Program-made: the position numbers and the translations under genes
The notes under the pieces: model-generated
Database searches by the model: none
What the model saw: the letters and a program-made list of their open reading frames with translations, nothing else
What the model was told of the DNA's origin: nothing
From: Tannerellaceae bacterium
GTDB lineage: Bacteria > Bacteroidota > Bacteroidia > Bacteroidales > Tannerellaceae
DNA: 64,000 nucleotides
NCBI GenBank assembly: GCA_021204405.1
Contig: JAJPZJ010000059.1
Location: forward strand, 1-64,000
Direction of reading: 5' to 3'
Part shown: positions 35,084-59,416 of the stretch, piece by piece
Numbering within the stretch: position 1 is the first letter of the stretch
Layout of the letters: each line of letters begins with the position of its first letter

Positions 35084-35107
35084 GGTAGCCAAACATACAC
35101 CTCCTCT

Positions 35108-35203
35108 GTTCCCGGCGCAGGCGGGGATCGCAAAATAGCTGGCCGTTTCACCTATAAAAAGTATCCTGCCTGTTCCAGTGCGGTCCCCGCCTGCGCCGGG
35201 AAC
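35108..35203. repeat. Family A ~100-bp inverted-end repeat
   Basis: Ends GTTCCCGGCGCAGGCGGGGA and TCCCCGCCTGCGCCGGGAAC enclose a ~55-bp spacer. It lies between convergent sulfatase and reactivation-domain genes, where it could serve as a bidirectional terminator. Confidence 0.75.
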
Positions 35204-35247
35204 TTGTTTATTTTGTATTAAGATCTCCAGGCAACGCCTGGGATTAT

Positions 35248-35948
35248 CTACCGTTTTCTTTTATAGCAATCTTTCATATTACATTGTGAGCAACCGTAAG
35301 GAACTCTTTGTATCTGCTCTCCTACTCCAACTATGGCGCTGACCGATTTAATGGGTAGCATCAGGCTGGAACCGGTAAGGGTGATACCGCAAAACCCGGC
35401 AGGCAGAAAAGAGAAAAGTGTATGCTGGTCGGATACCGGCCAGCTGCAATATCCCGGACTATACGGGTTGGTTAGTGAATAGCCAACCTGTTTGTTTTCT
35501 TCTTCCAGCAAGTTTAATGCATAGGCCATGATTGATTCGGTGAGTGCCGAACCGATTGCGTCGGCAACAAAAGATTCTACCAGGTCGCCACAGGCCTGTT
35601 TTTCTTTTAGCCAACCGTCTGCCCCGGCACCAACCGTGGCAACCAGGAGGATAAAGTAGCAGCTTTTTTTAGTTGGTTATGGATGATAGCTCCTACGTTA
35701 CATCTGCGGCCTTCCAGTACAAGGTACCGGTTATCCTCTAGTTTGCCGGTAAGATACCGGTAACCAAAGCAGCAACCTTTTAACTGCTTTACCTCCTCCA
35801 GTTGCCTGTTGATTACCTGCTGTACAAAAGGAGGAGTTTGTGCCGGTGTAGTTTCGAGGCAGGCATAGATTTCGTCTGTAAGGATTGCCGTGCCGGCAGG
35901 GTCAACCGTCACCCGGCGACAGGCCCGGCGGATGATAAAAGTATTCAT
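35248..35948 (-). pseudogene. B12-dependent methionine-synthase activation-domain-like protein, one frameshift
   Basis: The joined frame (~233 residues) resembles the stand-alone AdoMet-binding activation domain of MetH. It has RRACRRVTVDPAGTAILTDEIYACLE, EGRRCNVGAIIHNQL, then (after the slip near 35650) YFILLVATVGAGADGWLKEK, GDLVESFVADAIGSALTESIMAYALN, and the AdoMet/cobalamin-facing YSLTNPYSPGYCSWPVSDQHTLFSFLP. The end CGYGCSQC-like NMKDCYKRKR is Cys-rich. Such domains re-methylate oxidised cob(II)alamin using AdoMet and an electron. Last gene of the methyl-transfer module; its start overlaps the cupin stop by 4 nt. The slip lies near GCTGCTAC. Confidence 0.78.
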
Positions 35949-36353
35949 GTGGCCGGGTGTAATATAAGTTGATCCAATAATTGTTGTTGTTCGCCGGTAA
36001 GCGAATAATATTCACAATCCCGCAGGTGTGTTCCTGTATTTTCGAAGATAAAGACTATTGCCTCCTTTTCTAAGGCGATGTTATGCCACACGCCTTCAGG
36101 TATATTGTAGATAATTTCTTTTTCCATCGGGATAGTATCGAACCGGATGCCCTCTTTACCGAAAGTGGCTTCTATCAACAAGGCTTTGCCCGATAATAAT
36201 ATAAACACCTCGTCGGTAAGCAGATGTCTTTCTACCCGATCCATCCTGTCAAATGCCTGTCCGGGAATGTAATTGAGGATACCACCCCTGCCAGTTTTCC
36301 CGGATCAGGCAGGGGTGGTATCCTTCTCCTGTATAGTTATATTGTTCAATCAT
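35945..36353 (-). pseudogene. Small cupin protein of the methyl-transfer module, one frameshift
   Basis: ATG 36351-36353 overlaps the stop of the upstream methyltransferase (ATGA). The N-terminus MIEQYNYTGEGYHPCLIREN runs into a G4 run near 36285 (three G restores QGGILNYIPGQAFDRMDRVERH). The remainder is a single-domain cupin: VFILLSGKALLIEATFG, YNIPEGVWHNIALEKEAIVFIFENTGTHL, with a His in the second cupin motif. It could bind a metal and a small ligand such as a sugar; I cannot assign a reaction. Tight overlaps on both sides show it belongs to the corrinoid operon. Confidence 0.75.
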
Positions 36354-37363
36354 ACGTCGAGTCTTTTATTATAATTATGTAAAGCGTTATAAAACGCCTC
36401 TATATTTTCCATTGGAATATGCGGAGGGGTGTCGCAACCGGAAGAAAGGATAAAGTTGTTATATCCGGCGGTTGCCTCTAAGAGATCGGTTGTAGCTTTA
36501 TACATCTCTTCCGCCGTAGCCTGTTTAAAGAGAGCCACAGGGTCGAGGTTTCCCATAACCAGGCAATCGGCAGGGCAACCGTTGAGCGCCTCTTTCATAT
36601 CTATCTTATTCCCGAAATGGTAACCGGCCGCTCCGGTATCGACCATGGCAGCGGTACAATTGCCCGTATTCCCGCAATTATGCAGGAACACAAGGAAAGA
36701 GTCATCTTGCACAGCCTCTACGATCTGTTTAATATATACCGACGAGAACTCCCGGCAGGCATCGCCGGATAATAACCCGGCGGCAGGCTCGGCGATGAGA
36801 ACACCTTGTGTTCCCTCCTCTTTTAATGCTTTGCAGTAGGCGATAATAAGTCCGGTACATTTCGAAAGGAGCAGCCGGGAGTTTTCCGGGTCAATGTAAA
36901 TCGCCATCATCATTTCCGACATATCATACAACCGGCCGGCCAGTGAGAAAGAGCCGATGCAACCGGAGATAACAGGTTTATCTATCGTTTCGGCGGCCAG
37001 GCGATTGGCTAATAGGTATTCGGGAATACGGCCTGCATCCAGTCCGGGTACTTTTAACTGCTGAATGCCTGCTTCGTCTGAAAGCAACCGACCTACCACA
37101 GTGGGTACTTCATTTTCGGGGAAATGAACGGTTGCTCCGAAGGCTTCCGCTTCTACCGTCAGGTCCATAATTACCGAGCAGGCAGCCGATGGGTAGGTAT
37201 CACTCAGTATCTTAACGGCTTCGTAGTGGGTACGGCCATCTGTTACGGCATCTACTACCCGTTTGCCAATCATTTCAATGCCCGAATGGGTCATGATGGG
37301 GATGGTTACCCGTTGTTTATTTTCAATAATGGAGCGCATCCATTTTGTCATATTCATCTTCAT
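36350..37363 (-). CDS. MtaA/UroD-family corrinoid methyltransferase (1)
   Basis: The 337-residue protein belongs to the uroporphyrinogen-decarboxylase-fold methyltransferases (MtaA/CmuA type). The zinc-site pattern His-x-Cys...Cys is present: H228-N-C230 in FLHNCGNTG and C310 in LSSGCDTPPHIPMENIEAF. These bind and activate a thiol, methyl donor or acceptor for transfer to or from a corrinoid protein. It differs strongly from the second copy at 38023-39096, suggesting that one takes methyl from the substrate and the other passes it to an acceptor. Lies 11 bp downstream of the corrinoid protein gene. Intact. Confidence 0.85.
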   Translation of the reverse strand: MKMNMTKWMRSIIENKQRVTIPIMTHSGIEMIGKRVVDAVTDGRTHYEAVKILSDTYPSAACSVIMDLTVEAEAFGATVHFPENEVPTVVGRLLSDEAGIQQLKVPGLDAGRIPEYLLANRLAAETIDKPVISGCIGSFSLAGRLYDMSEMMMAIYIDPENSRLLLSKCTGLIIAYCKALKEEGTQGVLIAEPAAGLLSGDACREFSSVYIKQIVEAVQDDSFLVFLHNCGNTGNCTAAMVDTGAAGYHFGNKIDMKEALNGCPADCLVMGNLDPVALFKQATAEEMYKATTDLLEATAGYNNFILSSGCDTPPHIPMENIEAFYNALHNYNKRLDV

Positions 37364-37374
37364 AAGGGTATGTA

Positions 37375-38016
37375 TTAAAGTCCGATTAATTCTTTTGCTT
37401 TGGTTACGGCCGAGTTGGCGTTTGTACTGTATCCGTCGGCTCCGATCTGCCTGGCAAACTTTTCATTTACGGGGGCACCTCCTACCATTACCTTTACCTG
37501 GTTGCGTATTCCCTCCTGTTCCAGCGCCTCTATTACCTCCTGCATATAGGTCATGGTGGTGGTTAGCAGGGCCGACATACATAGGATATTGGGCTTCTCT
37601 TCTTTGATGGCAAGGATGAATTTCTCTGCCGGGATGTCTACACCGAGGTTTACCACATCAAAGCCGCAACCTTCCAGCATAGAGGCTACGAGGTTTTTGC
37701 CAATATCATGCAGGTCGCCTTTGACGGTACCGATCAGCACCTTTCCGATGGTGGCCGATTGATCGCCTTTCAGCAAAGGTTTGAGCAGTTCCAAAGCTCC
37801 TTTCATGGCACGTCCGGCCATCAGTAGCTCCGGAACAAATGCTTTTCCATCCTGGAAGCGTTGCCCCACTTCTTCCATCGCTTTGATCATATAATCGTTG
37901 ATGATCAGTTGGGGAGCTACTCCCTCATCAATCGCAACTTTTGTTACTTCTACGGCCGGCTCGAGTTTGCCGGCAACGATCGAGTTGTATAAAATATTCA
38001 GTTCAGCCATGTTCAT
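37375..38016 (-). CDS. Corrinoid (B12-binding) methyl-carrier protein
   Basis: The 213-residue protein has the two-domain layout of MtaC/MttC/MtmC carriers: a four-helix cap (residues ~1-85) and a Rossmann-like cobalamin domain. The diagnostic D101-L-H103-D-I-G106 supplies the His that replaces the lower axial ligand. SALLTTTM and VMVGGAPVN complete the nucleotide-loop pocket. It shuttles a methyl group between two methyltransferases, which here are encoded immediately on either side (6 and 11 bp). Intact, high confidence in family. Confidence 0.93.
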   Translation of the reverse strand: MNMAELNILYNSIVAGKLEPAVEVTKVAIDEGVAPQLIINDYMIKAMEEVGQRFQDGKAFVPELLMAGRAMKGALELLKPLLKGDQSATIGKVLIGTVKGDLHDIGKNLVASMLEGCGFDVVNLGVDIPAEKFILAIKEEKPNILCMSALLTTTMTYMQEVIEALEQEGIRNQVKVMVGGAPVNEKFARQIGADGYSTNANSAVTKAKELIGL

Positions 38017-38022
38017 TCCGGT

Positions 38023-39096
38023 TTAAGGGTTAGTACTATTGAGTTTCATCAATTGTTCGTACGAGCCGTATTTACGTCCGGCTTCAATAAAGGCTTTGAA
38101 GTTTTCCGGAGGGGTATTCCTACCCATGGCACAGCCCGAGCTCAGGAAGTGGCTTCGTCCTTTGGTGGCACAGATCAGTTGCTTTACGGCGGTGTCTATT
38201 TCCTGGGGTGTACCTAATACCAGCGGGTAGCTGGGGTCGATATTTCCCATCAGTATGGTCGACATGGATACGATATTGCGGGCTTTTTCCATGTCGAGTT
38301 GCCAGTCTATTTCGATAATACGTGCACCGGTGGTTCCCATATCTTCTATAATGCCGTTGGTGTTGCCGCAGATATGGAGGGAGAAAGGGATTCCGTAGGC
38401 CTGCACCTCCTCTATTAGTTTTTTCTCCGGTTCGAGGGCAAACTCACGGTACATACCGGGTGAGATCAGGTTGGGGCCGGCCAGTGCGTCACCTATGGAG
38501 GTGGCATGGGCGCCGGCGTCTTTCTGTGCTTTGGCAAACAGGGCACTTGCCCGGCGGCAATAGTCGAGTACGTCGGCTATCAGTTGTTTATCTTCGGTAA
38601 GCAGGTCCATCATAAACCGGGTGGTGCCCCGCAGCAGGCAGGCAATGCTGAAAGGGCCCTGGTCTGCCCGACCCATGATAAATACCCGGTCGCCAATCTC
38701 GTTTACGAGTGTAGCCGTTGCTTCGAGCCATTCCGACAGGCGTCCGGCTTTTAAGGGGTCGGGTAGTTCAAGGTCGTATACATCGTGCAGGTCTTTCAGT
38801 ACCAGTTCATCTTCATTGACGGTGGCCGGTTCGTCTTCCCTGAAAATCACTTTGGCTCCGATCGCTTCGGCTATGGAGGCATCGTCGAAGTCGATCACAC
38901 AGCCATCATATCCGTATTTCTCCTGCGAGATTACATGTGCCTGTGCCATCCGTTTACCATTATTATTGACCTGTCCGATTTTCATGCCGGCTGTTTCGAC
39001 AGCGTACATAAAGCTTTGGGGGACGATCGGTAAGGTATCGGGCATCTCTCCGTTCAAAACGGCTAAACACCTTTCGAGTGAAGTCATCTGTTTCAT
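38023..39096 (-). CDS. MtaA/UroD-family corrinoid methyltransferase (2)
   Basis: The 357-residue protein has the UroD/MtaA fold with H241-I-C243 in SLHICGNTNG and C322 in FLSSGCAMGRNTPPENFKAF, the expected zinc triad. Other family blocks are YGYDGCVIDFDDASIAEAIGA and DALAGPNLISPGMYREF. The closer resemblance to MtaA-like proteins suggests it could be either the methylcorrinoid:acceptor or the substrate:corrinoid enzyme; sequence alone does not decide. It is the first of the methyl-transfer genes, 11 bp after the transporter. Intact. Confidence 0.87.
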   Translation of the reverse strand: MKQMTSLERCLAVLNGEMPDTLPIVPQSFMYAVETAGMKIGQVNNNGKRMAQAHVISQEKYGYDGCVIDFDDASIAEAIGAKVIFREDEPATVNEDELVLKDLHDVYDLELPDPLKAGRLSEWLEATATLVNEIGDRVFIMGRADQGPFSIACLLRGTTRFMMDLLTEDKQLIADVLDYCRRASALFAKAQKDAGAHATSIGDALAGPNLISPGMYREFALEPEKKLIEEVQAYGIPFSLHICGNTNGIIEDMGTTGARIIEIDWQLDMEKARNIVSMSTILMGNIDPSYPLVLGTPQEIDTAVKQLICATKGRSHFLSSGCAMGRNTPPENFKAFIEAGRKYGSYEQLMKLNSTNP

Positions 39097-39107
39097 ATCG
39101 TTATCAT

Positions 39108-40257
39108 TTATTTTTTAAGTACATAAAAAGCTGTTATCAATATATATTGTAAGGTAAACAGTAAGATAAAGAGGCTTGTCCATTGGGTGGTTGCGTCGGC
39201 CAGTATACCCATTACGGGAGGGATCAGGGCGCCACCGGCTACCCCCATAATCATCAGGGCGGATATCTCGTTGGTAGATGAGGGGCCGGTACGTAAGGCG
39301 GCTCCGAAAACAATGGCAAATACGTTTGCACAGGTTAGTCCTACAAGGAAGAGGGCCACCATCCATACGGTTACATGGCCGGTTCCCATCAGTACGCCGA
39401 AAGCCAGTATGGCTACCACCAGTGTATTAATAAAAAAGGAACGGGGCGATAGTTTCAGTAGCAGGAAAGAGCCGGCAAACGTACCCAGGGTACGGGCTGC
39501 GTAATAGAGGCTACAGGCAAAACCGCCTTTATCCAGCGGCAGGGAATACCGTTCGGTTAGATATTTAGGTACTGCCGTCATCAATCCTATTTCAAAACCA
39601 ACGATCAGTACGATAATGGAGAAAAGGAGCAGCAGTTGTTTGTTTTTGAGTAAACTGATAATCTTCGCTCCGGTTTGTTGTTTGTCGTCATGCACCACCT
39701 CTTTTACGGGGGGTGAACTGCAACCAGAGAAATGATAAAAGGGTGGCAGCTGCATATACCGGGAAAACCAGTCTCCAGTTACCCCATGTTCCGGTTGCTA
39801 CTCCTGCAAGTATAGGCCCCAGGAAGGAGGAGATTGCTTTTATAAACTGGCCCAGGGTAAGCATACTGGTGACTTTCTTTTCGGCTACGATATCGGTTAG
39901 TAAGGGGTTGAGCGATACTTGTAAGATGGTATTGCCAATTCCAAGCAACGCAAAGGCTGTAAGAACAGCCGGGAATGAGTACCGGAACAGGGAAATAAGC
40001 ATGGCCAATGTAGTTATCCCGGCACTGAGCAGTACAGTTCGCTTCCTCCCGATTTTTCCCATCAGTATACCGGTAGGCAGTGAGCAGATGGCAAACCAAA
40101 GGAATACCAGCATGGGCAGGAGGTTGGCCAGTTTATCGTTCAGCCCGAAATCCTGTTTTACGTAGCTGGTGGCAATACCCACTACGTCGACGAATCCCAT
40201 AATAAAGAATCCGAAGAGGACAGGAAGGAGTTGGATGAGGTGTTTGTTGTTTTTTCA
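39108..40257 (-). pseudogene. MFS transporter, probable sugar importer, two frameshifts
   Basis: Reassembled it is a ~383-residue, 12-helix major facilitator. An A6 run just after ATG 40255-40257 (five A gives KNNKHLIQLLPVLFGFFIMGFVDVVG) and a C6 run near 39715 (five C joins FTP to VKEVVHDDKQQ) break the frame. MFS motifs include LPTGILMGKIGRKRTVLL between helices 2 and 3 and the second-half VPKYLTERYSLPLDKGGF. The FMGFVDVVG opening and length recall the FHS fucose/glucose symporter group common in PULs. It lies between the GH38 genes and the methyltransferases and would import the released monosaccharide or methyl sugar. Confidence 0.8.
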
Positions 40258-40356
40258 TATGTTTTATTTTGAGTTGCAGATGAAATACAGTTATGAGTTG
40301 TAAGTTGGTAGTTTTAGAGTTTGCAGAGGATTCCCTCCAATGATAAAACAGGCCCA

Positions 40357-40456
40357 GTTCCCCGCGAAGGCGGGGACCGCACTAGCACAGACATAAATCA
40401 TCTTTTTTGTATTTGAAACAGACATTTCTTTTGCGGTCCCCGCCTTCGCGGGGAAC
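40357..40456. repeat. Family A 100-bp inverted-end repeat
   Basis: Ends GTTCCCCGCGAAGGCGGGGA and TCCCCGCCTTCGCGGGGAAC. The spacer TCATCTTTTTTGTATTTGAA is nearly the reverse complement of the spacer at 48912-49011, so the two copies lie in opposite orientation. The arms carry a compensating change (GAAGG/CCTTC instead of GCAGG/CCTGC), keeping the pairing. Confidence 0.85.
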
Positions 40457-40548
40457 TTAGACTATTATTTGCATTTAAACTCTTCTGACCAGGACCAACT
40501 ACAATTTACAACTTTATCAAAGAACGATTGGGCTTTTGACACACCCTT

Positions 40549-40645
40549 ATGTTTTCCGGAAAAGGTAGGGAGCTTTTTCCAAAAAGGTAACTATGTTTTT
40601 CCGAAAAGGTAGTGACCCGTTTGGGAAAACGTAGGACTTTTTTCC
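40549..40645. repeat. Degenerate ~23-bp tandem repeat, about four units
   Basis: Variants of TTTTTCCGAAAAGGTAG follow each other: GTTTTCCGGAAAAGGTAG, CTTTTTCCAAAAAGGTAA, GTTTTTCCGAAAAGGTAG and TTTGGGAAAACGTAG. Each unit contains a small palindrome (TTTTCC/GGAAAA). Located directly downstream of the GH38-1 stop within a 394-bp gene-free gap (40258-40651). Confidence 0.6.
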
Positions 40646-40651
40646 GGGTTG

Positions 40652-43526
40652 TTACTGCCTGAAATTCAATTTAAAGGTTTCTATTGCGTGATGTCCGACC
40701 GGAAGTGTAACAGAGGTTCCCTGTCCGGGTACCGTGCCCTCTTCATCTTCGATCAGGTTTGTTTTTATAATTTGCTGCACCGGTGCAGCAAAATCGAGTT
40801 TTAGCTGCCGGTTTTTACCGGCTATTTCCGACAGGCGTATGATTACGTCGTTGCTGTTGTCGGCACGCTTTACGGTGGTTACGTTTACCAGGGATTCGGA
40901 GGTGGTGAGGAAGCTTAGTTGCTCCGGGAGTTGGTTGCCCGTGGTGGTTGTTTTACGAACTGCATGCAATGGGTGGTTTGCCTCTACGCCATAGCGGTAG
41001 CCGTGTTACCAGCCGGCTTCATGGGCTAAGAGTGAGAATGAATAGTGGTGACGGCCTTTCTGTTCGTACCAGTTACCCAGTCCGTGGCAACTCTTATGCG
41101 AGGAGAGTAAGATGGCCTGTAACACAGGATAAGCGACTGCTTCACGGGAGGGGTCTACCCAGTCGGCTACTGCTACACAGGAGGATAAGGTAAGTCCGAA
41201 TCCTTCGCCGTTAGCCGAGATCAGGTTCTGGATCTCACGGGGGTTGATCTCGGCCGGTTGCTGCCGGTAGGTACCTCCCCAGGCCCATCCGCCGGGAACG
41301 GTTTTCATCTCGTCTTTTCCTACTTCTACCATGCCCATGGGTACTTCGTAGTTGATGGTAAAGCGATCCATCTCTAAAGGTAGCGCCATTCTAAACTGCC
41401 GGTTGTGGATGCCGTCGAAGTTGGTGAGTGTAATATCCATATCAATCTTTTTGATAGTATGGTATATCCTGATCTGCTGGATAACTTCGGTATGTTGCAT
41501 GTGTTGACGGTTTTCGAACGTAGTGAACAGGGCGCCCGATTCAACAATTTGCCAGTGTGCTACCTGGCTGCTGATAGCCAGCAAGTCGCCCGGCGTTGGT
41601 GGGGTAACCTGCGTGAACTCGCCGGCACCGTTACCCTGATAGCCTCCGTTGATGATATCGCCTCCTTTGAATTTGGTTGTATTCAAGATCTCCCGGTTTA
41701 ATGTTTTATCGAAAAGGTTTTTGATACCTCCGTCGCTCAGGGTGATTCGGTAGAATTCGTTTTCGTAATAGTTGGTATGTTGCTTTACAGAGGCAGGGGC
41801 TGCCTGTGGTGACTTTCCATTACTGAGGTAAAAGGTTTTATACCCCAGCGATGGAACTTCGTTGGCTATAAATTGCAACTCATATCCGTTCTCTCCTTTT
41901 ACAAGTTGTGAGGCGATCGGTTTGCCGGTAGGGTCTTTTACAAGGGTGTTACGGGCAGTTTTTTCGTCGAGTTGTATAGTTACCGGATTAGTGCGCTGCC
42001 AGTTGAGGTCGTTAAAGACTACCACTGCATTTTTACGGGTTTCGATCTTTCCGGCTAGTGCATGGAGTGCATTGCCGAGCAATTCTTTTCCTTTATCACG
42101 TGCAAACTCTAATGTGTCGCGGAAGATACGGTCGGTAATATCGCCGTTCTTACCTCCCTAGCCGTGGTCAGGATAGATGGAAGCCATCCAGGCTTCGTTG
42201 AATGCCGCTTTTGGATAATCTCCGGGAGTCTTGTCGACCAGGTAGTTGAACGTGGTAAACATCTCGGCAGCGGGAAGTAGTATACCTGCTTTGCGTTTGG
42301 CTTTGATGGCCTGGTAATGGGCCGGACCATGAATGTACAGCCATAGGTCGGGACGTTCGCCCGATACTTTTTCAAGGTTTGCCTGTGGTACGTTAACGGT
42401 GGCGAAATAGGCTTCGGCCGTGGAGTGTTTGATGGTAGGTAACGGCACGTCGGCAAGGGCAACGATCCGGTTCCATTCGTCTACCAGTGTTTTGTAATTG
42501 GCCGGTTCTTCTGCGTCGTTGCTGATTACTACGGCATAGTGGGGCGGGATATTGTGCAAGCGGAAGTATTCACTCCATAGTTGCGAACGGTGGTGGAGGC
42601 GGCCAAAGCCGGTGATGGCATCTTCTTCCAGAAACTTCCAGATCATTACAGCCCAACCATAGTTGCCGGGGGTAAAGGTGAATATTTTGGAGCCGTCGGG
42701 GCTATACCAGTCGTATAATTCCTCACGCATACGGCTGATAAAAAGGTTCTTTATGCCGCTCTTTGCCAATATCTGGGGCATCTGGAGAGTGCGTCCGGGT
42801 ACATCAATATTATAGGCAGTGCGGTCGTCGCAACCGGGAATATGCTCCCGAATCCATTTACGGCCGAAATAGGTTTACCGTACCAGTTGTTCGCTCGATT
42901 CTAACCCTTCGTAAGGTTGATTGTAGGTGGCACCCCAGGCAAAACGTCCCTCTTTATAGCGGCGTATTACCTCTTCTTTCCTGTTGGGGAATTCATCGAG
43001 AAACTCCCTCAGGTTGAGGGTTTGTTCCATACCGAACGCAAAGTCCTGGTCGGTGTCCATCATTTGCATGGCCGGGTTGATGATGTCGTATATCCGTTCG
43101 TGCCTGCACGAGTCGGGCGTGTTCATCCAGGCTATATCCTGATGGGAGGAAGAGATGATATGGATTGTTCCGTTCTGGAAGTAATCCCAGTTTGGCGGGA
43201 TCAGGGGGGGTATAGAGCTGTTCGGCAATCATTTTCTTTTGCTTGCCCGAGGCTATTTGCAAGAGCTTATCCTCTCCTATCAGTGGCAACCATACGGTAA
43301 GTTTATTGTCAGAGGCATTGGCTACCTCAACCGGCTTGCCGTCCAACCAGACCTGTGTGCCGGGAGGGTGGGTACCGGGCAGGTGTACGGTAGCTTGTAT
43401 CTGTAACTGTCCGTTCCGCTTTTCATACTGATAGGGCTTGCTATGCGTAACTTCCACCATAGCCGTTTGTCCATAGCCGCAGAGGCTTACCAGTAGGCAA
43501 AGGGTTGTGAATATAAATTGTTTCAT
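40652..43526 (-). pseudogene. GH38 alpha-mannosidase 1, one frameshift and three stops
   Basis: A signal peptide (KQFIFTTLCLLVSLCGYGQ) and an N-terminal beta domain precede the GH38 core. Zinc-binding SSSHQDIAWMN, the nucleophile region YNIDVPGRTLQMPQILAKSG and the zinc His in SIYPDHG*GG are all identifiable, as are C-terminal beta domains. Lesions are a C7 run near 43215, TAA at 42875 (LVR*TYFGRKW, Gln in the paralogues), TAG at 42158 (PDHG*GGKNG, Trp in both paralogues) and TAA at 41006 (AGW*HGYRYG). The intact protein (~957 residues) would cleave alpha-mannosides in the periplasm. Closest neighbours are GH38-2 (8 bp upstream) and the MFS gene. Confidence 0.88.
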
Positions 43527-43534
43527 AGGTTGGA

Positions 43535-46178: not shown

Positions 46179-46190
46179 ATTCAGTGGGGT

Positions 46191-48872
46191 TTAATAGATT
46201 AGCTTATATGTTTCAATTGCGTATTTACCCAGCACGATGTGTTCTACTTCGCCTATCTCCTCTTCTATCAGGTTAACGTGTACGATTTTGCGGGGTTTCC
46301 TAAAGAATTGCGGCATAACTATTTCCTGCCGGTCGCCTTGATTATAGAGGCGTATGATCAGGCTGTTATCGTCTTCGCATTTTTTAAAGGCTGATACCAC
46401 TACATTTTCGCTGGATAGGCTGATAAAGCTTTGTGTAAGCGGTAAGGTTGCATTCCGGTATGGTTGCGGATTATAAACGGCCTGTAGCCTGTCGTTTGCA
46501 GCCGTTCCGAATCGAACGCCCTCCACATCATCCGGCCGGTGAGAGGTAAGGGAGAAGTGGTAATAATGGTCTCCCGTCTGGTTATATTCATTACCCAGCC
46601 AGTGGCAGCTTTTGCGTGAGGCCAGGAGGATGGGTTGCAGGATCGTTTGCGCAACACCCGGTTGGGTGGGGTCTTTATAATCGGCTACGGCTACGGACGA
46701 ACTGAGTGTTACTCCGAACTGATCGCCCGAGCCTGCAATCCAATTGCCGATACCACGCGGACGTTGTTCTTTGTTTTCTACGTAATAGCGTTCACCTGCT
46801 GCTCCCGGCATTTCGTCTTTGCCTACTTCCAGTATGCCGTATGGTACTTCGTAGCGTACTGTTCCGTTGGTAAGGTTTAGTGGGAGCATCATGCGGAACT
46901 CGCGGTATAGTACACCTTCCCAGTTAAGGATGGCTATATCAAAGTCGATCTTTTTCAATTGGTGATATACCCGCATGGTTTGTTCAACTACTGCATGCCT
47001 GATTTTACTGCGATAGGTAAAGGAGGTGAATACCTCGCCTGTCTCCACTAGCTTCCATACTGGTGAATGGTTACTTATTCTATCAAAACCTTCCATCGTT
47101 GGTTGCTGTACGGCGTCGAACTCACCTGCGCCATTTCCTTCCGATTTCATGGTTATGATTTCGCCTCCCAGGAACCGGGATGTATCCAGCAGGCGGGTAT
47201 TCAACTCTTTATCTGTTATCTGGCTGATGCCGCCATTGGTTAGTTCGATGCGGTACCAGGGTGTTTCTATTTGTTTGCCGGGGGCGACTACACTGGTTTT
47301 GCCGGGGGCATTGGCCGGACTAAGGAAGTAGGTTTGGTAACCCATTGCCGGAACGGCGGTTGCCACAAAGTGAAGCGTAGCCGATTGGATGGTCTGGTCG
47401 TTATAGTAGGTAACATCGGTTAGCTGGCAGGGTAGGCGGCTTCCGTCGGCGGCTTTTACTGCGAGCGCCGAAGCATATCCCTCTTCCAGGCGTATGTCTA
47501 CGGTAACAGGGTCGTTACGTTGCCAGGATAGCGCATTGAATATAACTATAGGGCGGCCGGTTTGTTGTGCGGTGTTGACTTTCGAGGCCAGTGCTCCCAT
47601 TTCGGTTGCCAGCAGTGTGGTTGCTTCTGTTTCGGCATATTCGAACTTTTGCCGGAAGATGTTATCTGTTAGGATGCCTCCGTTGCCACCCCAACCGTGG
47701 TCGGGATAGCTTTTAGCTTCCCATGCGGCCTGCAATTGTTTTTCAGGATAGGCATTGAAGTTGCCTTCTGCCAGTGCCCGGAAAGAGGCTAGTTTTTCGG
47801 CAGCCGGAAGTAGTACATCACCTTTGCGGCTGGCAGTGAGTGCTCTTTCGTGGGATGGGCCGTGGATATACAGCCATACGTTAGGCCGTTCGCCTTTTAT
47901 GGTGGGCAACGATGCTGTGGAGCGGTTGAGTGTATGGAAAAACTCGTCGGCCATAGCGTAACGGAATGTAGGGAGACTTATTTTTGTTTTCTTACCTCCC
48001 GGTTTCTGTATATACCGGATACTATTCCATAAGTTCATAAAGGGTTCACAGTTTTCGACCGGTTGCTGATCCCATATAAATTCGTAGTTAAGCATAGCCG
48101 GCATAACGGTGGGTGCTTTGGCTACATTGTTGTATTGGGTATACCAGAGTACTGATTCTTTTGCCAGTTCGTTAATGGCTGTGTCATTCTCCATGCCCAG
48201 TACATTGTAGAAGTAGATATAATGTCCGGGGGTGTAGGTGCGTACTTTCGAGCCGTCAGGGGCTTCCCAGTTGAAGAGTCCGCATTCATGGCGGCTGATT
48301 ATCAGGTTGTCTATGCCTGCTTTCTGCATGATCTGTGGCATTTGCAGGGTTCTTCCCGGTACGTCTACGTTGAAATATGAGAGGGCTTTGTAACCGTCGA
48401 AATTCTTTTTCAGCCAGCAGTTACCCAGGTAAAACTGGCGGGCAAGTGATTCGCCCGAATACATCTCTTCGTAAGGTTGAATAAAGGTGCCACCTATACA
48501 AATCCGTCCCTCTTTCAGATGCTTGTTTATCACCTCTTTCTTTTCGGAGTGGCGATGGATATATTCCATCACGATTGAGGTCTGTTCAATATCCATTTTG
48601 AAGGATGGATCTTTCTGGAGCCTTTCGAGAAAAGGTGTGAGCCACATCGTATCGCGGTTAATGGTACAGACCTCAATATGGTCGAGCCATCTCAAATCCT
48701 GATGGGTGGTGGTGAAAAGGAATATTTCACCATTCTTCAACTGCGAATCTGAAAGTTTTTTTAATAAGGTGTACGTTTCGTCGTCGCATTGGTAGACTCC
48801 GTTGGCAAACTGTGCAGCTACCGGAAAGAGTCCGAGTAGTGATAGTAGTAGTGATAAGAGATACTTTTTCAT
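46191..48872 (-). CDS. GH38 alpha-mannosidase 3, intact
   Basis: The 893-residue protein is complete. It has a signal peptide (KKYLLSLLLSLLGLFPVAAQ), the zinc motif TTTHQDLRWLDHIEVC, the nucleophile region YFNVDVPGRTLQMPQIMQKAG, the zinc His in SYPDHGWGGNGGILTD, and beta domains to VLGKYAIETYKLIY. GH38 enzymes are retaining, zinc-dependent alpha-mannosidases. In PULs they act on N-glycan or other alpha-mannosides. The HQD is followed by LRW where the paralogues have IAW, a subfamily difference. It is first of three tandem GH38 genes, 12 bp before GH38-2, and is the only one without lesions. Confidence 0.93.
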   Translation of the reverse strand: MKKYLLSLLLSLLGLFPVAAQFANGVYQCDDETYTLLKKLSDSQLKNGEIFLFTTTHQDLRWLDHIEVCTINRDTMWLTPFLERLQKDPSFKMDIEQTSIVMEYIHRHSEKKEVINKHLKEGRICIGGTFIQPYEEMYSGESLARQFYLGNCWLKKNFDGYKALSYFNVDVPGRTLQMPQIMQKAGIDNLIISRHECGLFNWEAPDGSKVRTYTPGHYIYFYNVLGMENDTAINELAKESVLWYTQYNNVAKAPTVMPAMLNYEFIWDQQPVENCEPFMNLWNSIRYIQKPGGKKTKISLPTFRYAMADEFFHTLNRSTASLPTIKGERPNVWLYIHGPSHERALTASRKGDVLLPAAEKLASFRALAEGNFNAYPEKQLQAAWEAKSYPDHGWGGNGGILTDNIFRQKFEYAETEATTLLATEMGALASKVNTAQQTGRPIVIFNALSWQRNDPVTVDIRLEEGYASALAVKAADGSRLPCQLTDVTYYNDQTIQSATLHFVATAVPAMGYQTYFLSPANAPGKTSVVAPGKQIETPWYRIELTNGGISQITDKELNTRLLDTSRFLGGEIITMKSEGNGAGEFDAVQQPTMEGFDRISNHSPVWKLVETGEVFTSFTYRSKIRHAVVEQTMRVYHQLKKIDFDIAILNWEGVLYREFRMMLPLNLTNGTVRYEVPYGILEVGKDEMPGAAGERYYVENKEQRPRGIGNWIAGSGDQFGVTLSSSVAVADYKDPTQPGVAQTILQPILLASRKSCHWLGNEYNQTGDHYYHFSLTSHRPDDVEGVRFGTAANDRLQAVYNPQPYRNATLPLTQSFISLSSENVVVSAFKKCEDDNSLIIRLYNQGDRQEIVMPQFFRKPRKIVHVNLIEEEIGEVEHIVLGKYAIETYKLIY

Positions 48873-48911
48873 GTTGCATTATTTTTAGTTGTTCGTATTC
48901 GTATGGTGCTA

Positions 48912-49011
48912 GTTCCCCGCGCAGGCGGGGACCGCAAAAGATGTTACTGTTTCAAATACAAAAAAGATGATTTCTATCTGTTCCGGTGCGGTCCCCGCCT
49001 GCGCGGGGAAC
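48912..49011. repeat. Family A 100-bp inverted-end repeat
   Basis: Ends GTTCCCCGCGCAGGCGGGGA and TCCCCGCCTGCGCGGGGAAC are perfect complements. The spacer (TTTCAAATACAAAAAAGATG in its middle) is the reverse complement of that at 40357-40456. It lies between SusD-2 and the GH38 genes inside the putative operon, so it may act as an intergenic attenuator or mRNA stabiliser. Confidence 0.85.
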
Positions 49012-49065
49012 TGAACCTGTTTGTTTTCACTTCTTACAGTATTGGTAATCATATTTTATTCATAT

Positions 49066-50622
49066 TTAAAATCTTCCGACCATGATCGATCTCCTGCTCC
49101 CTCCTCCTTGATACCCCGGGTTTTGTGTGAGCTCGGAGTTGGTTTGCCGGTCTCTTAACGGGATGGGGAACAGGAATTGGGTTTCTGTGAATTTGAAGGC
49201 TCCGTTTCCGTAAGGGAGTACGTAGCCTTCAAAGTCGGCAAAGCGATTGGTTTTCAGGTCGAGTACTTTACGGGTGCGGGCCATGTCAAACCAGGTCTGG
49301 TTTTCGAAGCAAAGCTCCCAGTAACGTTCTTTCCATACGGCTTCGCGGAAAGCATTCTGCGAGGGGAAGTCGGCAAGCGCGGAGGGTTCAAGGCCGGCAC
49401 GTTGACGTACTTTATTATAGCAATCGAGTGCCTGACTGTTGGGTAAACCGTCTGCTTCGTTCTGTGCTTCGGCATAAACCAGTAACAGGTCGGCGTAACG
49501 CAGGTTGGAGTAGTTTTGTGCTCCCTGTAATGTCTCCATCGCATCGTCGTCGAAAAACTTATAGATGTGTGCTGTAAAGGTTACGATCTCTTCCGGGTTG
49601 TTCCAGTTTGGATAATTGGTAAAGAAGAATCCTTTTTCCTTTACACGCTCGTCGTCCGGGTCGAATGTCCGGATAAAAGAAGAATCAGGATAAAAACAGC
49701 CATATTCGTTGGCGTAATTGGAAATGCCCGAATAGCGGGGCAACAGCCATTGGTGGATGGCATGATCCTGGATACTGGCTTCATACTGGGTCTGGAAGAT
49801 ATGTTCCACGGTGTTATCTTTTTTCCGGTCGCGCAGGTCGTGAATCGTTGGGAAAAGGCTATACCAGTTATTGTCTATTATCTTTTTTGCCTTTTCGGCT
49901 GCACGGGCGTACATCTCGGTTTTACCCAGCGGATAGCCGGCCATTGTAAAATAGACCTTGGCAAGCATGGATTTTACCGCACCTTTGGTGATCTTTCCGG
50001 ATTGAGATGTATTGGGGAGCGAGCTTTTCTCGGCTTCCAATAGGTCGGCTACAATCTGGTCGTAGACAGTTGCTTTATCCGTTCTCGGAATATTTACACC
50101 CTCTATCGATTCGGTTGGTTCGGTATGTAACGGAATATCTCCATACATCTGAACCAGCATAAAATAATAGTAGGCACGCAGGAAGTGCACTTCCCCCAGG
50201 TAATGAGAGAGGTCGGCAGCACTTACATTCGGTGTACCAGGTAATTTGGTAATTGCCAGGTTACAGTTTTCGATGCCTTCGTAAAAAGACTGCCACCAGT
50301 CCCAGGCATACAGGTTGTCTTCACTGGCATTGGCTTCCCTGAATTCTGCGCTATAGGCGGCCTGCCCTACGGATGTATTACACACACCGGTAGCAAACTC
50401 AAGCATCATAAAAGGGCTTTCGCCATAGGTAGCGACTCCATGGTAAGGCCTGCGGAGCGGATCACAACAGGCAGTAACCGCCTGTTGTGCATGTTCGGGT
50501 TTGGAGTAGAACGTTTCGGTTGTGAAGAAAGTCTTCGGGTCTACATCCAGGTAGGAGTTACAGCCGGTTGCCAGGCAGAAAGCAAGCGCTGAACAGATTA
50601 TTTGGAATACATTGTTTTTCAT
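49066..50622 (-). CDS. SusD-type surface glycan-binding lipoprotein of PUL 2
   Basis: ATG 50620-50622 gives the lipoprotein signal KNNVFQIICSALAFCLATGC. SusD features follow: DVDPKTFFTTETFYSKPEHAQQAV, LGEVHFLRAYYYFMLVQMYGDIPL, the RagB-like LLVYAEAQNEADGLPN, and WKERYWELCFENQTWFDMARTRK near the end. 518 residues, intact. It lies 22 bp downstream of its SusC partner and upstream of the three mannosidases, so it should bind an alpha-mannose-rich glycan at the cell surface. Confidence 0.92.
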   Translation of the reverse strand: MKNNVFQIICSALAFCLATGCNSYLDVDPKTFFTTETFYSKPEHAQQAVTACCDPLRRPYHGVATYGESPFMMLEFATGVCNTSVGQAAYSAEFREANASEDNLYAWDWWQSFYEGIENCNLAITKLPGTPNVSAADLSHYLGEVHFLRAYYYFMLVQMYGDIPLHTEPTESIEGVNIPRTDKATVYDQIVADLLEAEKSSLPNTSQSGKITKGAVKSMLAKVYFTMAGYPLGKTEMYARAAEKAKKIIDNNWYSLFPTIHDLRDRKKDNTVEHIFQTQYEASIQDHAIHQWLLPRYSGISNYANEYGCFYPDSSFIRTFDPDDERVKEKGFFFTNYPNWNNPEEIVTFTAHIYKFFDDDAMETLQGAQNYSNLRYADLLLVYAEAQNEADGLPNSQALDCYNKVRQRAGLEPSALADFPSQNAFREAVWKERYWELCFENQTWFDMARTRKVLDLKTNRFADFEGYVLPYGNGAFKFTETQFLFPIPLRDRQTNSELTQNPGYQGGGSRRSIMVGRF

Positions 50623-50644
50623 AATTCCGTATGATTTAAAGTTA

Positions 50645-53600
50645 TCAGAATACAACATTTACTCCCAGGTTGAAAGAATGTGCTTTCGGGTAGTTAAAGA
50701 ATTCTACACCTTGGGCAAAGGTATCGGTATAGTTGGTTGTTTCCGGATCGTAGCCTTTGTATTTGGTGATCAGGAAAAAGTTCTGTGCATTCACATAGAA
50801 ACGTACTCTATCCAGTTTAACAGTGTTGACGATACGATAGGGTAAGGTATATCCAAACACGATATTGCTACCACGGATAAATGAACCATCTTCGATATAA
50901 TGGCTGTTCAGTTTCAGTTCTGAGCCATCCCCCTGTGAGTCTACGCGTACACTGGCAATAGGGGTGTTCTGGTTTTGTGGTGTCCAGGCATTTAATACGG
51001 TGGTAAGCGAGTTCGACAGGGTCTGGCGGTCTTCTACGGTTGCGTAGTCGAGCCTCATAATATCGTTGCCGTAGCGGAAAGAGAGATCGAAAGAGAAGTC
51101 AAACTGTTTGTAACGCATGGTTGAGCTCAGGTTACCTTCAAACTTGGGTAAGCCATTCCCGATAATGGTACGGTCGTTCGAGTCTACTTTACCATCGTTA
51201 TTTAGATCTGCAAATTTCAGGTCGCCCGGTTTCTTCCCATAGCGGGCAGCTTCGTCGGCTTCGTGAGTTCCCCCAGGTTCCTAATCTAACATATCCTACG
51301 TACGAGTTTACAGCCTCTCCTACCCGCAGGATGTTTGTTATATCCAGGAAGTAAGGCCCCATGTAAATATCTTCGTTTTCTTCTCCGAGTTTCAGGATTT
51401 TATTACGGTTAGCAGAGATAATAAAGTCGATGCCCCACGAGAAATCTTTGGTGCGGATTGCATCGGCATTCACTGCCAGTTCCCAGCCCCGGTTACGGAG
51501 GTTGCCGATATTTTTCATTACGGTTGTGTAGCCCGATGTTGCTGTAACAGGAGCATCCAACAATAGGTCTTCTGTTTTCTTGGAATAATAGTCTACCGAA
51601 ACATTCAGGCGGCTGTTGAAGAAGCCCATATCAAGCCCAACGTCAAACTGTCTGGTCTTTTCCCATTTCAGGTCGGGATTCGGAATGCGGCCGCGGCCGA
51701 TACCGTTGTAGCGGTTACCGTCGAAAATTCCTGTATAGCTTCCGGTGGCAGAGATAGAGCGGAAGTTAGGGATTGCATCATTACCGGTTAATCCGTAACT
51801 GGCGCGTAGCTTCATATTGGACAGAAAGGTAAGTGGTTTCATAAACGACTCTTCGGTAATACGCCACGCCAGTGCAGCCGATGGGAACGTAGCATACCGG
51901 TTGTTCTTACCAAAGCGCGACGATCCGTCGATACGGGTAGTAAGGGTTGCCAGATACCGGTTATTATAGGCATAGTTGACACGGGCAAAGTAAGAGTTCA
52001 TACGCCATTCATCCCAGTCGGATGATCCGGGGCGCGGGTTACTTCCGGCTCCGAGGTTGTGGTATTGATAAAAGTCGTCGGAAAATCCATGCGCTTCGGC
52101 CACTACCTTTTCCCAGTTGTTTTTGTTCCAGCTGGCTCCTGCCATTACGTTCAGGCTGTGTATTTCATTAAATACATTGGTGTAGGTAAGGTAGTTTTCA
52201 TTTTGCAGGTAAATGGTTCGTTCGGTAGTGATCTGTGCAACTCCCTGTTGGTCTTTTGCAATTGCACTCAATTCGCGGCCATTATACACATCATCTTTCA
52301 GCCAGATAAGTTGTGCGGAAAAAGAAGATTTTAATTCGAGACCTTTAGCCAACAGCAGGGTGATATTAAAATCGCCGAGCCCTTTGGTAGTAGTGTTCTT
52401 CCGGATCATATTCTTCAAAAGATTTACCGGGTTTTCACCGTTTTCGGTACCTGCATGTTGTGCATTGGTTCCCCAGCTTCTGTCCGGATTGGTTACCGGG
52501 ATAATAGGCAGGGCTTCCAATAACATACGGGTAGAATTCAATCCGCCCGGCCCTTCGGATGGCCCTTGTCTTTCGGTATGCAAAACGGCCAGGTTCATAT
52601 CTGTTTTGAGCCAGCTATTTACCGTATACGAATTGGTTAGTTTAGCCGTATATTTAGTATAATAGGATTCAAGCAAAATACCCTGGTTATTATCGTAACC
52701 TAGTGATAAAGAAGAGGCCTGTTTGTCGGTACCTCCGGCAATAGACAGCGAATGATTGGTAGATACTGCTGTACGGGTAGCCTCTTTCTGCCAGTCGGTA
52801 TCGTATTTGGGTGTACCGTCGGCATTGAAAAGGTCGGGTTCAAGGGTGGCATAGTCGGGCATTTGGCGCCCTTCCACATAGCCCCATACCTGCCGTTCCA
52901 TTTCCATATACTGGGCAGAGTTTAATACATCTATTTTACGGTCGGACGGCAGGTAACCAATACCCACGCTTCCGTTGTAATTTACTTTGGTGGCTCCGGC
53001 TTTCCCTTTTTTAGTGGTTACAAGGATCACGCCGTTGGCTCCACGTGCTCCGTAGATTGCTGTAGAGGAGGCATCTTTCAGCACGTCTACCGATTCGATA
53101 TCAGCGGTGTTGAGCATTCCGAAGTCAACCCCGATCACACCGTCTACTACAAATAGCGGGTCGTTGGTTGCATTGATAGAGTTATATCCGCGGATATTTA
53201 CTTTGAATATACCTCCGGGCAGCCCGCTATTATTATTGATATTGAAACCGGCTACTTTTCCCTGTAGTGCACCCAATGGGTTGGCCGAGGTTTTAGCCAG
53301 GATCTTTTCACTGGATATATTGGCTACAGAGCCTGTGAGGTCTGACTTCTTAATGGAACCGTACCCGATTACCACTACTTCATCCAGTACCTGTAGGTAT
53401 TCTCTCATGGTGATATGCATGAAAGAGTTGGTAGCCTAGTATTCCTGTTGCTGGTATCCTATGTATGAGAATACCAGTACGGCATTCCCGTTTGTTACTC
53501 TCAAGCTGAAATTACCATCGATATCAGTAATTGTACCGATTGTTGTTCCTTTCACCCCGGCATTTACTCCGATCAACGGATTATCCTGTTCGTCGACCAC

Positions 53601-53717
53601 CTGGCCGCTAACCTCTATGCCACCGGCCTGTTGTGGCGCAGGTGCAGCCTGTTCTGCCCTGAGCAGAGGTAGGCACAGCATACAGCATATGATATAAATT
53701 ATAGATTTGGTTTTCAT
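50645..53717 (-). pseudogene. SusC-type TonB-dependent transporter of PUL 2, one stop and one frameshift
   Basis: A signal peptide (KSIIYIICCMLCLPLLRAEQ), a carboxypeptidase-like domain (VSGQVVDEQDNPLIGVNAGVKG), TonB-box region LQVLDEVVVIGYGSIKKSDL, plug (NIRGYNSINATNDPLFVVDG) and SusC barrel make ~1020 residues. There is no STN domain, which fits control by a LacI repressor instead of sigma/anti-sigma. TAG at 53436-53438 (QQQEY*ATNSF) is explained by CAG to TAG within CCAGG. A G5 run near 51270-51274 (four G gives GTHEADEAARYGKK) breaks the C-terminal part. Imports the oligosaccharide bound by SusD. Confidence 0.86.
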
Positions 53718-53889
53718 ATAAATGCTTATTAGACTGGTATGTAACTTACAATAGGTTTAAATCTATTGCTTCATAGTAATAAGATAATTAAGATTAATAC
53801 ACATGAGTTCGTTTGGTATACAGCAATACATTTTTTTCTTACTCTCAATTCATAGGCAATAAATTATTGTTTTTAACTAAATAAACATA

Positions 53890-53905
53890 GGTTAATCGAT
53901 TAAGT
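53890..53905. promoter_or_regulatory. Putative LacI-family operator 1
   Basis: GGTTAATCGATTAAGT is a CG-centred palindrome containing the perfect core TTAATCGATTAA, typical of LacI-family operators. It lies in the 298-bp gap between the regulator and the SusC gene it probably controls. Confidence 0.6.
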
Positions 53906-53956
53906 AAATTTATAAAGAGATCTTTATAAAGGCACCTCCTTTTCTATTATGCCTCT

Positions 53957-53972
53957 ACTTTAACGATTAAGT
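53957..53972. promoter_or_regulatory. Putative LacI-family operator 2
   Basis: ACTTTAACGATTAAGT shares its right half GATTAAGT exactly with operator 1 and is an imperfect CG-centred palindrome. It sits about 240 bp upstream of the SusC start and 44 bp from the regulator stop. Confidence 0.55.
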
Positions 53973-54015
53973 AAATTAAGATTTTACTAAAAAGGCTACT
54001 AACCGGATTAGTTAA

Positions 54016-55020
54016 CTAATTCAATTCTAATTGGGTTGACAAAACTACCTGGGTTTTACCGGTAACGGTATCGGGTTTTTCTAATTCACGCAAAAGGATA
54101 TGAACAGCCTGTCTTCCTATCTCCTTAATCGGTTGATGGGCTATATTCATATTAGGAGCCAATATCTCAAAACTTGGCATGGTATGGAAACATGCCAGGC
54201 TTATTTTATGCTGTATATCAATCTTATTCTTATAGAAATAGCGTAGGGCTTCCATACCCAGGTAGTGGGTGGTAAAGTAGAAGCCGTCTAAATCGGGCAC
54301 TTCTTCAAAAAGACGGTCGAATATGGTTATCAGGTCTTCTTCGTATGCGTCTCTTTTTACTTCCCGGTATAACGCCGGATCATAGGGCAAACCGGCATCG
54401 ACGAGTGCGGCTTTATATCCATCGTGCCGCAGGTTCATCACTAACAGATGGGTGTCGGTAGTAATAAAGGCGATTTTTTTCTTCCCTTGCCCTATTAATG
54501 AGCGTACCAGTTGATAACTACCTTCTTTATTGTCAACAATTACATAGTTGGTATTGAGCTCGGGAAAGAAACGGTCGATAAGTACAAAAGGGATCTTCTC
54601 TTCCATCAGTAATTCCAACTCTTTCCTGGAGTGTTTGGTGGGTGCAATGATCAGTCCGTCTACTCCTTTTGATTTGAGCATACGGATAATTTTGCTTTCC
54701 CGCTTGGAGTCGGCCTCCGAACTACAGAAAGTGAGTGAATAATTATGTTTATCGGCTTCGAGTTCTATCTCGCGGGCAATTTGAGCATAAAATTCATCGC
54801 CAATGGAGGGAATGACTAATCCTAACGTATGGCTACTTCCACTGATCAGGCTTTTGGCTAACAGGTTGGGATGGTAATTTACTTTTCGGGCATAGGCCAG
54901 AACCTTCTCCTGCGTGGCCATACTGATCTTACGCTCATCTCCCTTTCCTGACAGTACCCACGACACGGTGGTAGTAGATATATTAAGGGCATTTGCAATA
55001 TCTTTGAGAGATGCGTTCAT
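54016..55020 (-). CDS. LacI-family transcriptional regulator of PUL 2
   Basis: The 334-residue protein has the LacI HTH and hinge (SLKDIANALNISTTTVSWVLSGKGDERKISMATQEKVLAYARKVNYHPNLLAKSL, split here across helix-turn-helix and hinge helix). A periplasmic-binding-protein-like effector domain follows (TLGLVIPSIGDEFYAQIAREIE, GVDGLIIAPTKHS, IPFVLIDRFF, KKIAFITT). It is directly upstream of the SusC gene on the same strand. Three similar CG-centred palindromes lie around it, one just upstream of its own start, which suggests autoregulation and control of the operon. The effector is presumably a sugar released by the PUL. Intact. Confidence 0.92.
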   Translation of the reverse strand: MNASLKDIANALNISTTTVSWVLSGKGDERKISMATQEKVLAYARKVNYHPNLLAKSLISGSSHTLGLVIPSIGDEFYAQIAREIELEADKHNYSLTFCSSEADSKRESKIIRMLKSKGVDGLIIAPTKHSRKELELLMEEKIPFVLIDRFFPELNTNYVIVDNKEGSYQLVRSLIGQGKKKIAFITTDTHLLVMNLRHDGYKAALVDAGLPYDPALYREVKRDAYEEDLITIFDRLFEEVPDLDGFYFTTHYLGMEALRYFYKNKIDIQHKISLACFHTMPSFEILAPNMNIAHQPIKEIGRQAVHILLRELEKPDTVTGKTQVVLSTQLELN

Positions 55021-55372: not shown

Positions 55373-55421
55373 GCTGTCCCTGGAAGTCTACCAGCCGTTG
55401 CCTGAAAGTCATTGTTCAGGA

Positions 55422-57718: not shown

Positions 57719-57737
57719 TCCATTAAAATCATTCCCA

Positions 57738-57836
57738 GTTCCCCGCGCAGGCGGGGACCGCATCAAAGCAGACAGAAAACATCTTCTTATATTTGAAACG
57801 GTCGGTTGCTTTGCGATCCCCGATCAAGCCGGGAAC
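57738..57836. repeat. Family A 99-bp inverted-end repeat
   Basis: Left end GTTCCCCGCGCAGGCGGGGA, right end diverged to ATCCCCGATCAAGCCGGGAAC. The spacer has TATATTTGAAACGG, in the same orientation as the copy at 40357. Located between convergent genes. Confidence 0.75.
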
Positions 57837-57848
57837 AATTACAAACAA

Positions 57849-59265: not shown

Positions 59266-59347
59266 ATGAAAGCGTTTCTAAGTAAAAAATGTTGGATATC
59301 CTGTTGGGAATATCAGGTAAATGACCGTAAGAGGTATGTGCTAGTCA

Positions 59348-59416
59348 GTTCCCCGCTCAGGCGGGGATCGCAAAGGAAAGGCCGGTTCTCATGCGGTCCC
59401 CGCCTACGCAGGGAAC
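59348..59416. repeat. Family A repeat, shortened copy (69 bp)
   Basis: Ends GTTCCCCGCTCAGGCGGGGA and TCCCCGCCTACGCAGGGAAC with a spacer of only ~29 bp. It lies between SusD-3 and the agarase-like gene, an intra-operon position parallel to that at 48912. Confidence 0.75.

Follow-up and report, generated by a model that had tools for sequence, protein, structure and literature searches.

The locus at positions 35248-55020 of the window, on the minus strand, is probably the decaying remnant of a polysaccharide utilization locus (PUL) for an O-methylated alpha-mannoside. The window is the whole 64,000-nt stretch of contig JAJPZJ010000059.1, from a Tannerellaceae bacterium, and all positions of the locus refer to it. 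The IleS of this genome is 85% identical to the Parabacteroides goldsteinii protein and at most 78% to those of the other genomes tested; on this one gene, the organism most likely belongs to the Tannerellaceae. The ancestral substrate was likely of the O-methyl-mannose type, and we assign it with greater confidence to the broader class of methylated sugars. The substrate, the direction of methyl transfer, the assignment of the two methyltransferases, the methyl acceptor and the loss of function in the window organism are what we infer here. The gene combination conserved in the relatives of this locus points to an undescribed, modular way of demethylating methyl sugars without oxygen across Bacteroidota.

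Organization of the locus

The genes lie in the order LacI, SusC, SusD, GH38A, GH38B, GH38C, MFS, MtaA1, corrinoid protein, MtaA2, cupin-like protein and MetH-type activation-domain protein. A sequence-only reading had described this gene set, order and strand, and all are present between 35248 and 55020. For comparison, we use the related loci L003 (Candidatus Gallibacteroides avistercoris, from the chicken gut; genome G190), L111 (G446), L113 (G444) and L114 (G459). The features are as follows, with the breaks located by tblastn with the proteins of relatives.

54016..55020, minus strand: LacI-family regulator, intact (Pfam LacI and Peripla_BP; 51% to the L003 LacI)
50645..53717, minus strand: SusC-type TonB receptor, pseudogene with one stop and one frameshift (Pfam Plug and TonB barrel)
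49066..50658, minus strand: SusD-type lipoprotein, intact (Pfam SusD_RagB and SusD-like_3)
46191..48872, minus strand: GH38 alpha-mannosidase A, intact, 893 aa (Pfam GH38N/C/C2; 61% to the L111 GH38)
43535..46178, minus strand: GH38 alpha-mannosidase B, pseudogene with two frameshifts and one stop (Pfam, tblastn)
40652..43526, minus strand: GH38 alpha-mannosidase C, pseudogene with one frameshift and three stops (Pfam; 56% to the intact L003 GH38, read through)
39108..40258, minus strand: MFS sugar-type transporter, pseudogene with two frameshifts (Pfam MFS_1; 67/51% to the L003 MFS)
38023..39096, minus strand: MtaA1, UroD/MtaA-family methyltransferase, putative substrate-specific methyltransferase (MTI), intact (Pfam URO-D, 6e-67)
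37375..38016, minus strand: corrinoid carrier protein, MtgC/MtbC-like, intact (Pfam B12-binding_2 and B12-binding; DxHxxG)
36350..37363, minus strand: MtaA2, UroD/MtaA-family methyltransferase, putative shared acceptor-side methyltransferase (MTII), intact (Pfam URO-D, 9e-54)
35945..36353, minus strand: small cupin-like protein, pseudogene with one frameshift (40-64% to the L111 and L003 homologues in two frames)
35248..35948, minus strand: MetH-type activation-domain protein, putative corrinoid reactivator, pseudogene with one frameshift (Pfam Met_synt_B12; 50% to the C-terminal half of the L003 CobW-activator fusion)

The cupin-like gene has no Pfam match and is called solely from its similarity to the L003 and L111 proteins. 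The MFS homologue of L003 resembles the gluP/NagP/FucP models. The GH38N domain is matched by three genes in the whole genome, all of them inside this locus; of the three mannosidases described earlier, only the one at 46191-48872 is intact, and the other two are pseudogenes. The locus has the adjacent SusC and SusD genes, the glycoside hydrolases and the regulator that characterize a PUL, although SusC is now a pseudogene, and its frames are interrupted by about 13 lesions.

Contrary to the earlier description, the run is not continuous. It is broken by gaps of 298 bp between LacI and SusC, 193 bp between SusD and GH38A, and 392-393 bp between GH38C and MFS, the latter two each holding an inverted pair of about 110 nt of the repetitive extragenic palindromic (REP) type. 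The tight spacing reported for most of the genes (under 25 bp, or overlapping) holds for the remaining junctions, which are 12 bp or less or overlap. Matches to the standard Bacteroides promoter pattern occur at chance level, and none lies inside the locus.

MtaA1 stays with alpha-mannosidases

How is the methyl-transfer module linked to mannose? We searched for MtaA1 in 125 genomes of the family, about 390 of the order and about 390 of the phylum. Close orthologues (74-79%) are confined to G446, G444 and G459 of the same family and to G190. L003 has the order LacI-GH38-MFS-MtaA1-Corr-MtaA2-cupin-activator, with gaps of 3-55 bp or a 4-nt overlap. The recurrence of the order in L003, and the presence of every GH38N gene of the window genome in the locus, indicate more than a chance association. 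L111 has MtaA1-cupin-GH38, and L113 has LacI-GH38-MtaA1-GH38-GH92. In L114, the order is LacI-MFS-GH92-MtaA1-Corr-MtaA2-cupin-CobW/activator, and GH38 is not near MtaA1. Directly upstream of the L111 block, G446 carries another UroD-corrinoid-UroD set (L111:5006-7830), which GH120 and two distant GH38 genes accompany.

An alpha-mannosidase thus lies within 10 kb of MtaA1 in all five loci, the window included, while the genome densities of GH38 and GH92 predict 0.36 of five; the five loci are orthologous and are not independent draws. The mannosidase is GH38 in the window, L003, L111 and L113, and GH92 in L113 and L114. GH38 and GH92 share one activity but belong to different families, which argues that the constant part is the mannose substrate rather than the enzyme. 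The replacement of GH38 by GH92 supports an O-methyl-mannoside as the substrate.

G444 and G446 encode their closest MtaA2 elsewhere in the genome, while MtaA1 still lies with the mannosidase. MtaA1 therefore looks like the sugar-specific, substrate-side enzyme, and the corrinoid protein, MtaA2 and the activator look like a shared module. This qualifies the earlier description of a mannosidase PUL fused to a methyl-transfer module: MtaA1 stays with the mannosidases, but the corrinoid protein, MtaA2 and the activator can lie elsewhere. The separation from mannosidases that had been named as grounds for abandoning the idea is likewise found for the shared part, but not for the putative substrate-specific MtaA1.

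The sister clade of MtaA1 (35-40%) has GH38 in five loci, and a sugar transporter with an AGE epimerase in several. Among its loci L090, L091, L094 and L097, each has a gene of the AGE (GlcNAc 2-epimerase) family and a sugar MFS gene, except that none was detected in L091; three of the four have GH38, and no corrinoid gene is nearby in these loci.

Two UroD-family methyltransferases and a corrinoid protein

By sequence, MtaA1 and MtaA2 are both placed nearest MtaA/HemE. The nearest structure to MtaA1 is the methylcobalamin:coenzyme M methyltransferase MtaA (4ay7; sequence E 2e-29). Its structural model (pLDDT 87) has the same protein as its best match by fold in the PDB, with a TM score of 0.86, and MtaA 4ay7 is also the nearest solved structure to MtaA2. 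Both proteins score below the curated cut-off of TIGR01463 (MtaA/CmuA; 163.4 and 136.2, respectively, against 235.4), and they are thus relatives of the MtaA/CmuA subfamily outside its defined membership. When aligned with 4ay7, both have the zinc-ligand pattern His-x-Cys...Cys, which is kept in all of the close MtaA1 relatives and in the sampled MtaA2 relatives. In the UroD partners of other clades, the HxC is often kept and the late Cys is absent.

The corrinoid protein contains the B12-binding_2 and B12-binding domains, and its DxHxxG motif, noted earlier, reads GDLHDIGKN. Its TIGR02370 score (198.8 bits) is below the 215.3 cut-off, and it is closest to the MtgC/MtbC-type corrinoid proteins. 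A complete putative O-demethylase set (MTI, corrinoid protein, MTII and activator) is encoded together in L003, where the activator is fused to a CobW-type GTPase; the activator is broken in the window.

Proposed pathway

Glycan uptake: The SusC/SusD pair would take up the glycan, and the GH38 exo-mannosidases would free methyl-mannose, which the MFS carrier would move into the cytoplasm.

Methyl transfer: The Co(I) corrinoid protein would receive the methyl group from MtaA1, with its zinc and UroD fold. Its onward transfer would fall to MtaA2, with a thiol or a folate as the acceptor; homocysteine and tetrahydrofolate are the candidates. The MetH-type activator would re-reduce the inactive Co(II).

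Candidate substrates exist. Chlorella vulgaris has N-glycans of the oligomannosidic type whose non-reducing ends carry 3-O-methyl and 3,6-di-O-methyl mannose, and the authors of that study proposed that this methylation may guard against mannosidase trimming by competitors (PMC6344472). In the E. coli O8-type polymannan, the methyl group is directly on a mannose hydroxyl (PMC3482155). Terminal O-methyl mannose is therefore present in food-chain glycans such as those of Chlorella, which we count in favor of the methyl-mannose assignment. The cobalamin-dependent demethylation of a methylated mannoside, as first suggested, holds to the extent that the mannosidase link is conserved in relatives, with GH92 replacing GH38; in the window genome itself, however, the pathway is most likely a relic.

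Alternative substrates and roles

Several observations weigh against the pathway as drawn. A number of the sister-clade loci have no mannosidase nearby, and five of the seven checked genomes with only the sister clade have no close MtaA2. The full MtaA-type zinc motif of MtaA1 is also what a thiol (acceptor-side) enzyme would have, and because MtaA1 keeps it, the MTI and MTII roles of MtaA1 and MtaA2 could be swapped. Finally, the window locus is broken, and so are its counterparts in G459 and G444.

Could the module instead demethylate a non-sugar compound, such as a methoxylated aromatic, methanol or a methylamine, with the mannosidases as neighbors by chance or through shared regulation only? 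In other systems, such substrates are handled by UroD/MtaA and corrinoid proteins of this kind, and another locus, L098, has MtaB and RACo with a related corrinoid protein. However, MtaB, MttB and MtrH were not found in the window locus or L003, the mannosidase neighbors of the close orthologues far outnumber the expectation given above, and other UroD clades have their own clade-specific sugar-enzyme partners. We consider a non-sugar substrate unlikely.

Alternatively, MtaA1 and MtaA2 might act on S-methyl groups—for example, on methylthio sugars of mannans, like the methylthiol methyltransferases—or MtaA1 might be the acceptor-side and MtaA2 the donor-side enzyme. The HxC...C pattern of the thiol-binding MtaA in both proteins favors this, as does the lack of the last cysteine in the UroD partners of other clades. 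In contrast, it is MtaA2, not MtaA1, that is common to loci with different sugar enzymes, which fits a shared acceptor-side role, and we regard both versions of this idea as quite unlikely. The O-methyl-mannose pathway, with MtaA1 on the substrate side, is the reading that we retain.

Decay of the window locus

About 13 frameshifts and stops are distributed over the SusC, GH38B, GH38C, MFS, cupin-like and activation-domain genes, while LacI, SusD, GH38A, MtaA1, the corrinoid protein and MtaA2 are whole. Half of the genes are thus broken, which went unnoticed when the locus was taken for a working unit. The readable nonsense codons resemble C>T or G>A changes (in W or Q codons), and several of the indels are in homopolymer runs. 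In the same genome, IleS (1141 aa), ValS (881), LeuS (951), MetG (727) and MetH (1234), about 14.8 kb together, have no breaks, against about 10 predicted from the lesion rate of the locus (P about 7e-5). Other GH92 genes, outside the locus, are likewise broken, and the coding density (0.66-0.94) is generally below that of the comparison loci.

Since these long essential genes have stayed whole, we conclude from the reading frames that the breaks probably represent a genuine, genome-wide erosion of glycan genes rather than sequencing errors. That the breaks are sequencing or assembly errors in an intact, working operon is quite unlikely: the frameshifts in homopolymer runs and the division of the assembly into 184 contigs would fit such errors, but the unbroken essential genes, the nature of the nonsense changes, the broken GH92 genes and the low coding density all oppose it. 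An alternative genetic code or stop read-through is rejected, as TAA, TAG and TGA are all present together with frameshifts, and the essential genes are clean. The locus is probably non-functional in the window organism, and it is most likely a decaying relic of the pathway rather than a working unit.

In L114 the GH92, activator and MFS genes are split, and L113 has a stop in GH38. The orthologous locus may have been lost repeatedly in related genomes.

The wider module in Bacteroidota

The relatives of MtaA2 (57-68%) occur in 51 named, Bacteroidota-dominated loci, nearly always with a MetH-type activator and often with a corrinoid protein. The variable part of these loci is the UroD-like partner and the sugar genes: GH31 is a neighbor in 15, GH141 in 14 and an SSF transporter in 17, Phocaeicola vulgatus ATCC 8482 (L005) being among them. 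In this strain, an SSF - UroD-like/corrinoid - GH31 - GH141 block (L005:9995-19661) adjoins MtaA2 and the activator, and a single gene, at about 3719948-3721750 of NC_009614.1, encodes the UroD-like domain and the corrinoid protein as a fusion. The model of this fusion matches the PDB through its corrinoid half only. The UroD nature of the other half is less certain, and comes from hhalign against standalone homologues (probability 90%, E 1.6e-6). UroD proteins were identified by BLAST, Pfam and hhalign, as the later rounds of an iterated UroD profile strayed into corrinoid proteins.

GH141 includes a rhamnogalacturonan II (RG-II) fucosidase, and GH31 includes alpha-xylosidases; RG-II bears 2-O-methyl-xylose and 2-O-methyl-fucose. 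The GH31-GH141 block fits a candidate role in RG-II methyl-sugar use. In another UroD clade (L154 and L155), a galactokinase-like gene (GalK, identified from its N-terminal motif), a corrinoid protein, a CobW GTPase, a MetH-type activator and RACo form one run. A CobW/G3E GTPase repeatedly accompanies the corrinoid activator, as a fusion in L003 (8274-9854) and as a separate gene in L145, L154 and L155, and perhaps delivers a metal or cofactor.

In a tree of 52 UroD partners, the sugar-gene context tracks the UroD clade; many of the tips, above all those of the MtaA1 sister clade, have no assigned partner. For the clade that holds the B. oleiciplenus UroD (L028), 4-O-methyl-glucuronate was considered and rejected, as in the tested set GH115 is beside L028 alone, and GalK or GH2-like genes are beside other members.

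We lean, somewhat cautiously, toward a general scheme in which Bacteroidota have a widespread, modular and oxygen-free catabolism of O-methylated sugars. A shared core (MtaA2, activator and corrinoid protein) would serve many clade-specific UroD-family demethylases, which travel with the hydrolases that free their methyl sugar. In this scheme, GH38 or GH92 would mark methyl-mannose, GH31 with GH141 probably the RG-II 2-O-methyl-xylose/fucose branch, and GalK probably methyl-galactose.

Relation to known systems

Sugars that bear methyl groups occur commonly in algae, in the pectin RG-II, in xylan and in some glycans of bacteria and invertebrates. To our knowledge, the enzyme known to remove a methyl ether from a sugar is a cytochrome P450, which depends on oxygen. 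Aryl methyl ethers have known corrinoid O-demethylases. The P450 of porphyran-degrading marine bacteria demethylates 6-O-methyl-galactose, requires oxygen and gives formaldehyde (PMC10033563). As in that system, the methyl ether would be taken off a monosaccharide freed by glycoside hydrolases encoded nearby; unlike it, the chemistry would be that of cobalamin, without oxygen, and the methyl group would be kept as a one-carbon unit.

The module shares an MtaC/MtgC-type carrier, a UroD-family MtaA-like methyltransferase with the zinc-ligand pattern and an activation protein with the methanogen and acetogen systems (MtaABC, MtgBC and the aryl O-demethylases). It differs from them in having two UroD-family enzymes rather than MtaB/MttB plus MtaA or MtrH, in using a MetH-type activation domain instead of RACo, and in its location in a glycan locus; moreover, coenzyme M is not expected in the window host. 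The core methionine synthases MesA-D have a related zinc barrel and take methyl groups from corrinoid proteins (PMC7857596), whereas MtaA2 belongs to the UroD/MtaA branch, with homocysteine as a candidate acceptor only. The Bacteroides alpha-mannan and N-glycan PULs likewise combine SusC/SusD, GH38 or GH92 and a regulator, and the window locus adds the methyl-transfer module and the MFS carrier.

In the open-licence journal literature searched, we found no account of Bacteroidota demethylating sugars by corrinoid chemistry or of a PUL of this kind, in agreement with the sequence-only reading, nor of how anaerobic gut bacteria handle methylated sugars. If the scheme is true, B12 supply would be tied to glycan use in the gut. 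The conserved operon of P. vulgatus ATCC 8482 and the close relatives of the window locus make the question directly testable.

Palindromic repeats

The window contains REP/BIME-like (bacterial interspersed mosaic element) inverted pairs of the form GTTCCCCGC...GCGGGGACCGCA, with 22 pattern matches against 3.4 expected. They lie at the following positions, two of them inside operon gaps.

31607: inverted pair
35106..35204: inverted pair, 3' of the last gene
40346..40457: inverted pair, in the GH38C-MFS gap
48911..49022: inverted pair, in the SusD-GH38A gap
57736..57837: inverted pair
59346..59412: inverted pair

Because the L003 counterparts are spaced by 3-55 bp or overlap by 4 nt, the 193-bp and ~393-bp gaps are secondary, and the tight linkage is ancestral.

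A second palindromic repeat, of about 190-210 nt, occurs as 113 matching pieces at about 45 places in the genome. The matches to Rfam Acido-Lenti-1 (RF01687) at 31725-31938 and 55187-55373 lie within it, which suggests that the Acido-Lenti-1 "RNA" here belongs to a mobile palindromic element.

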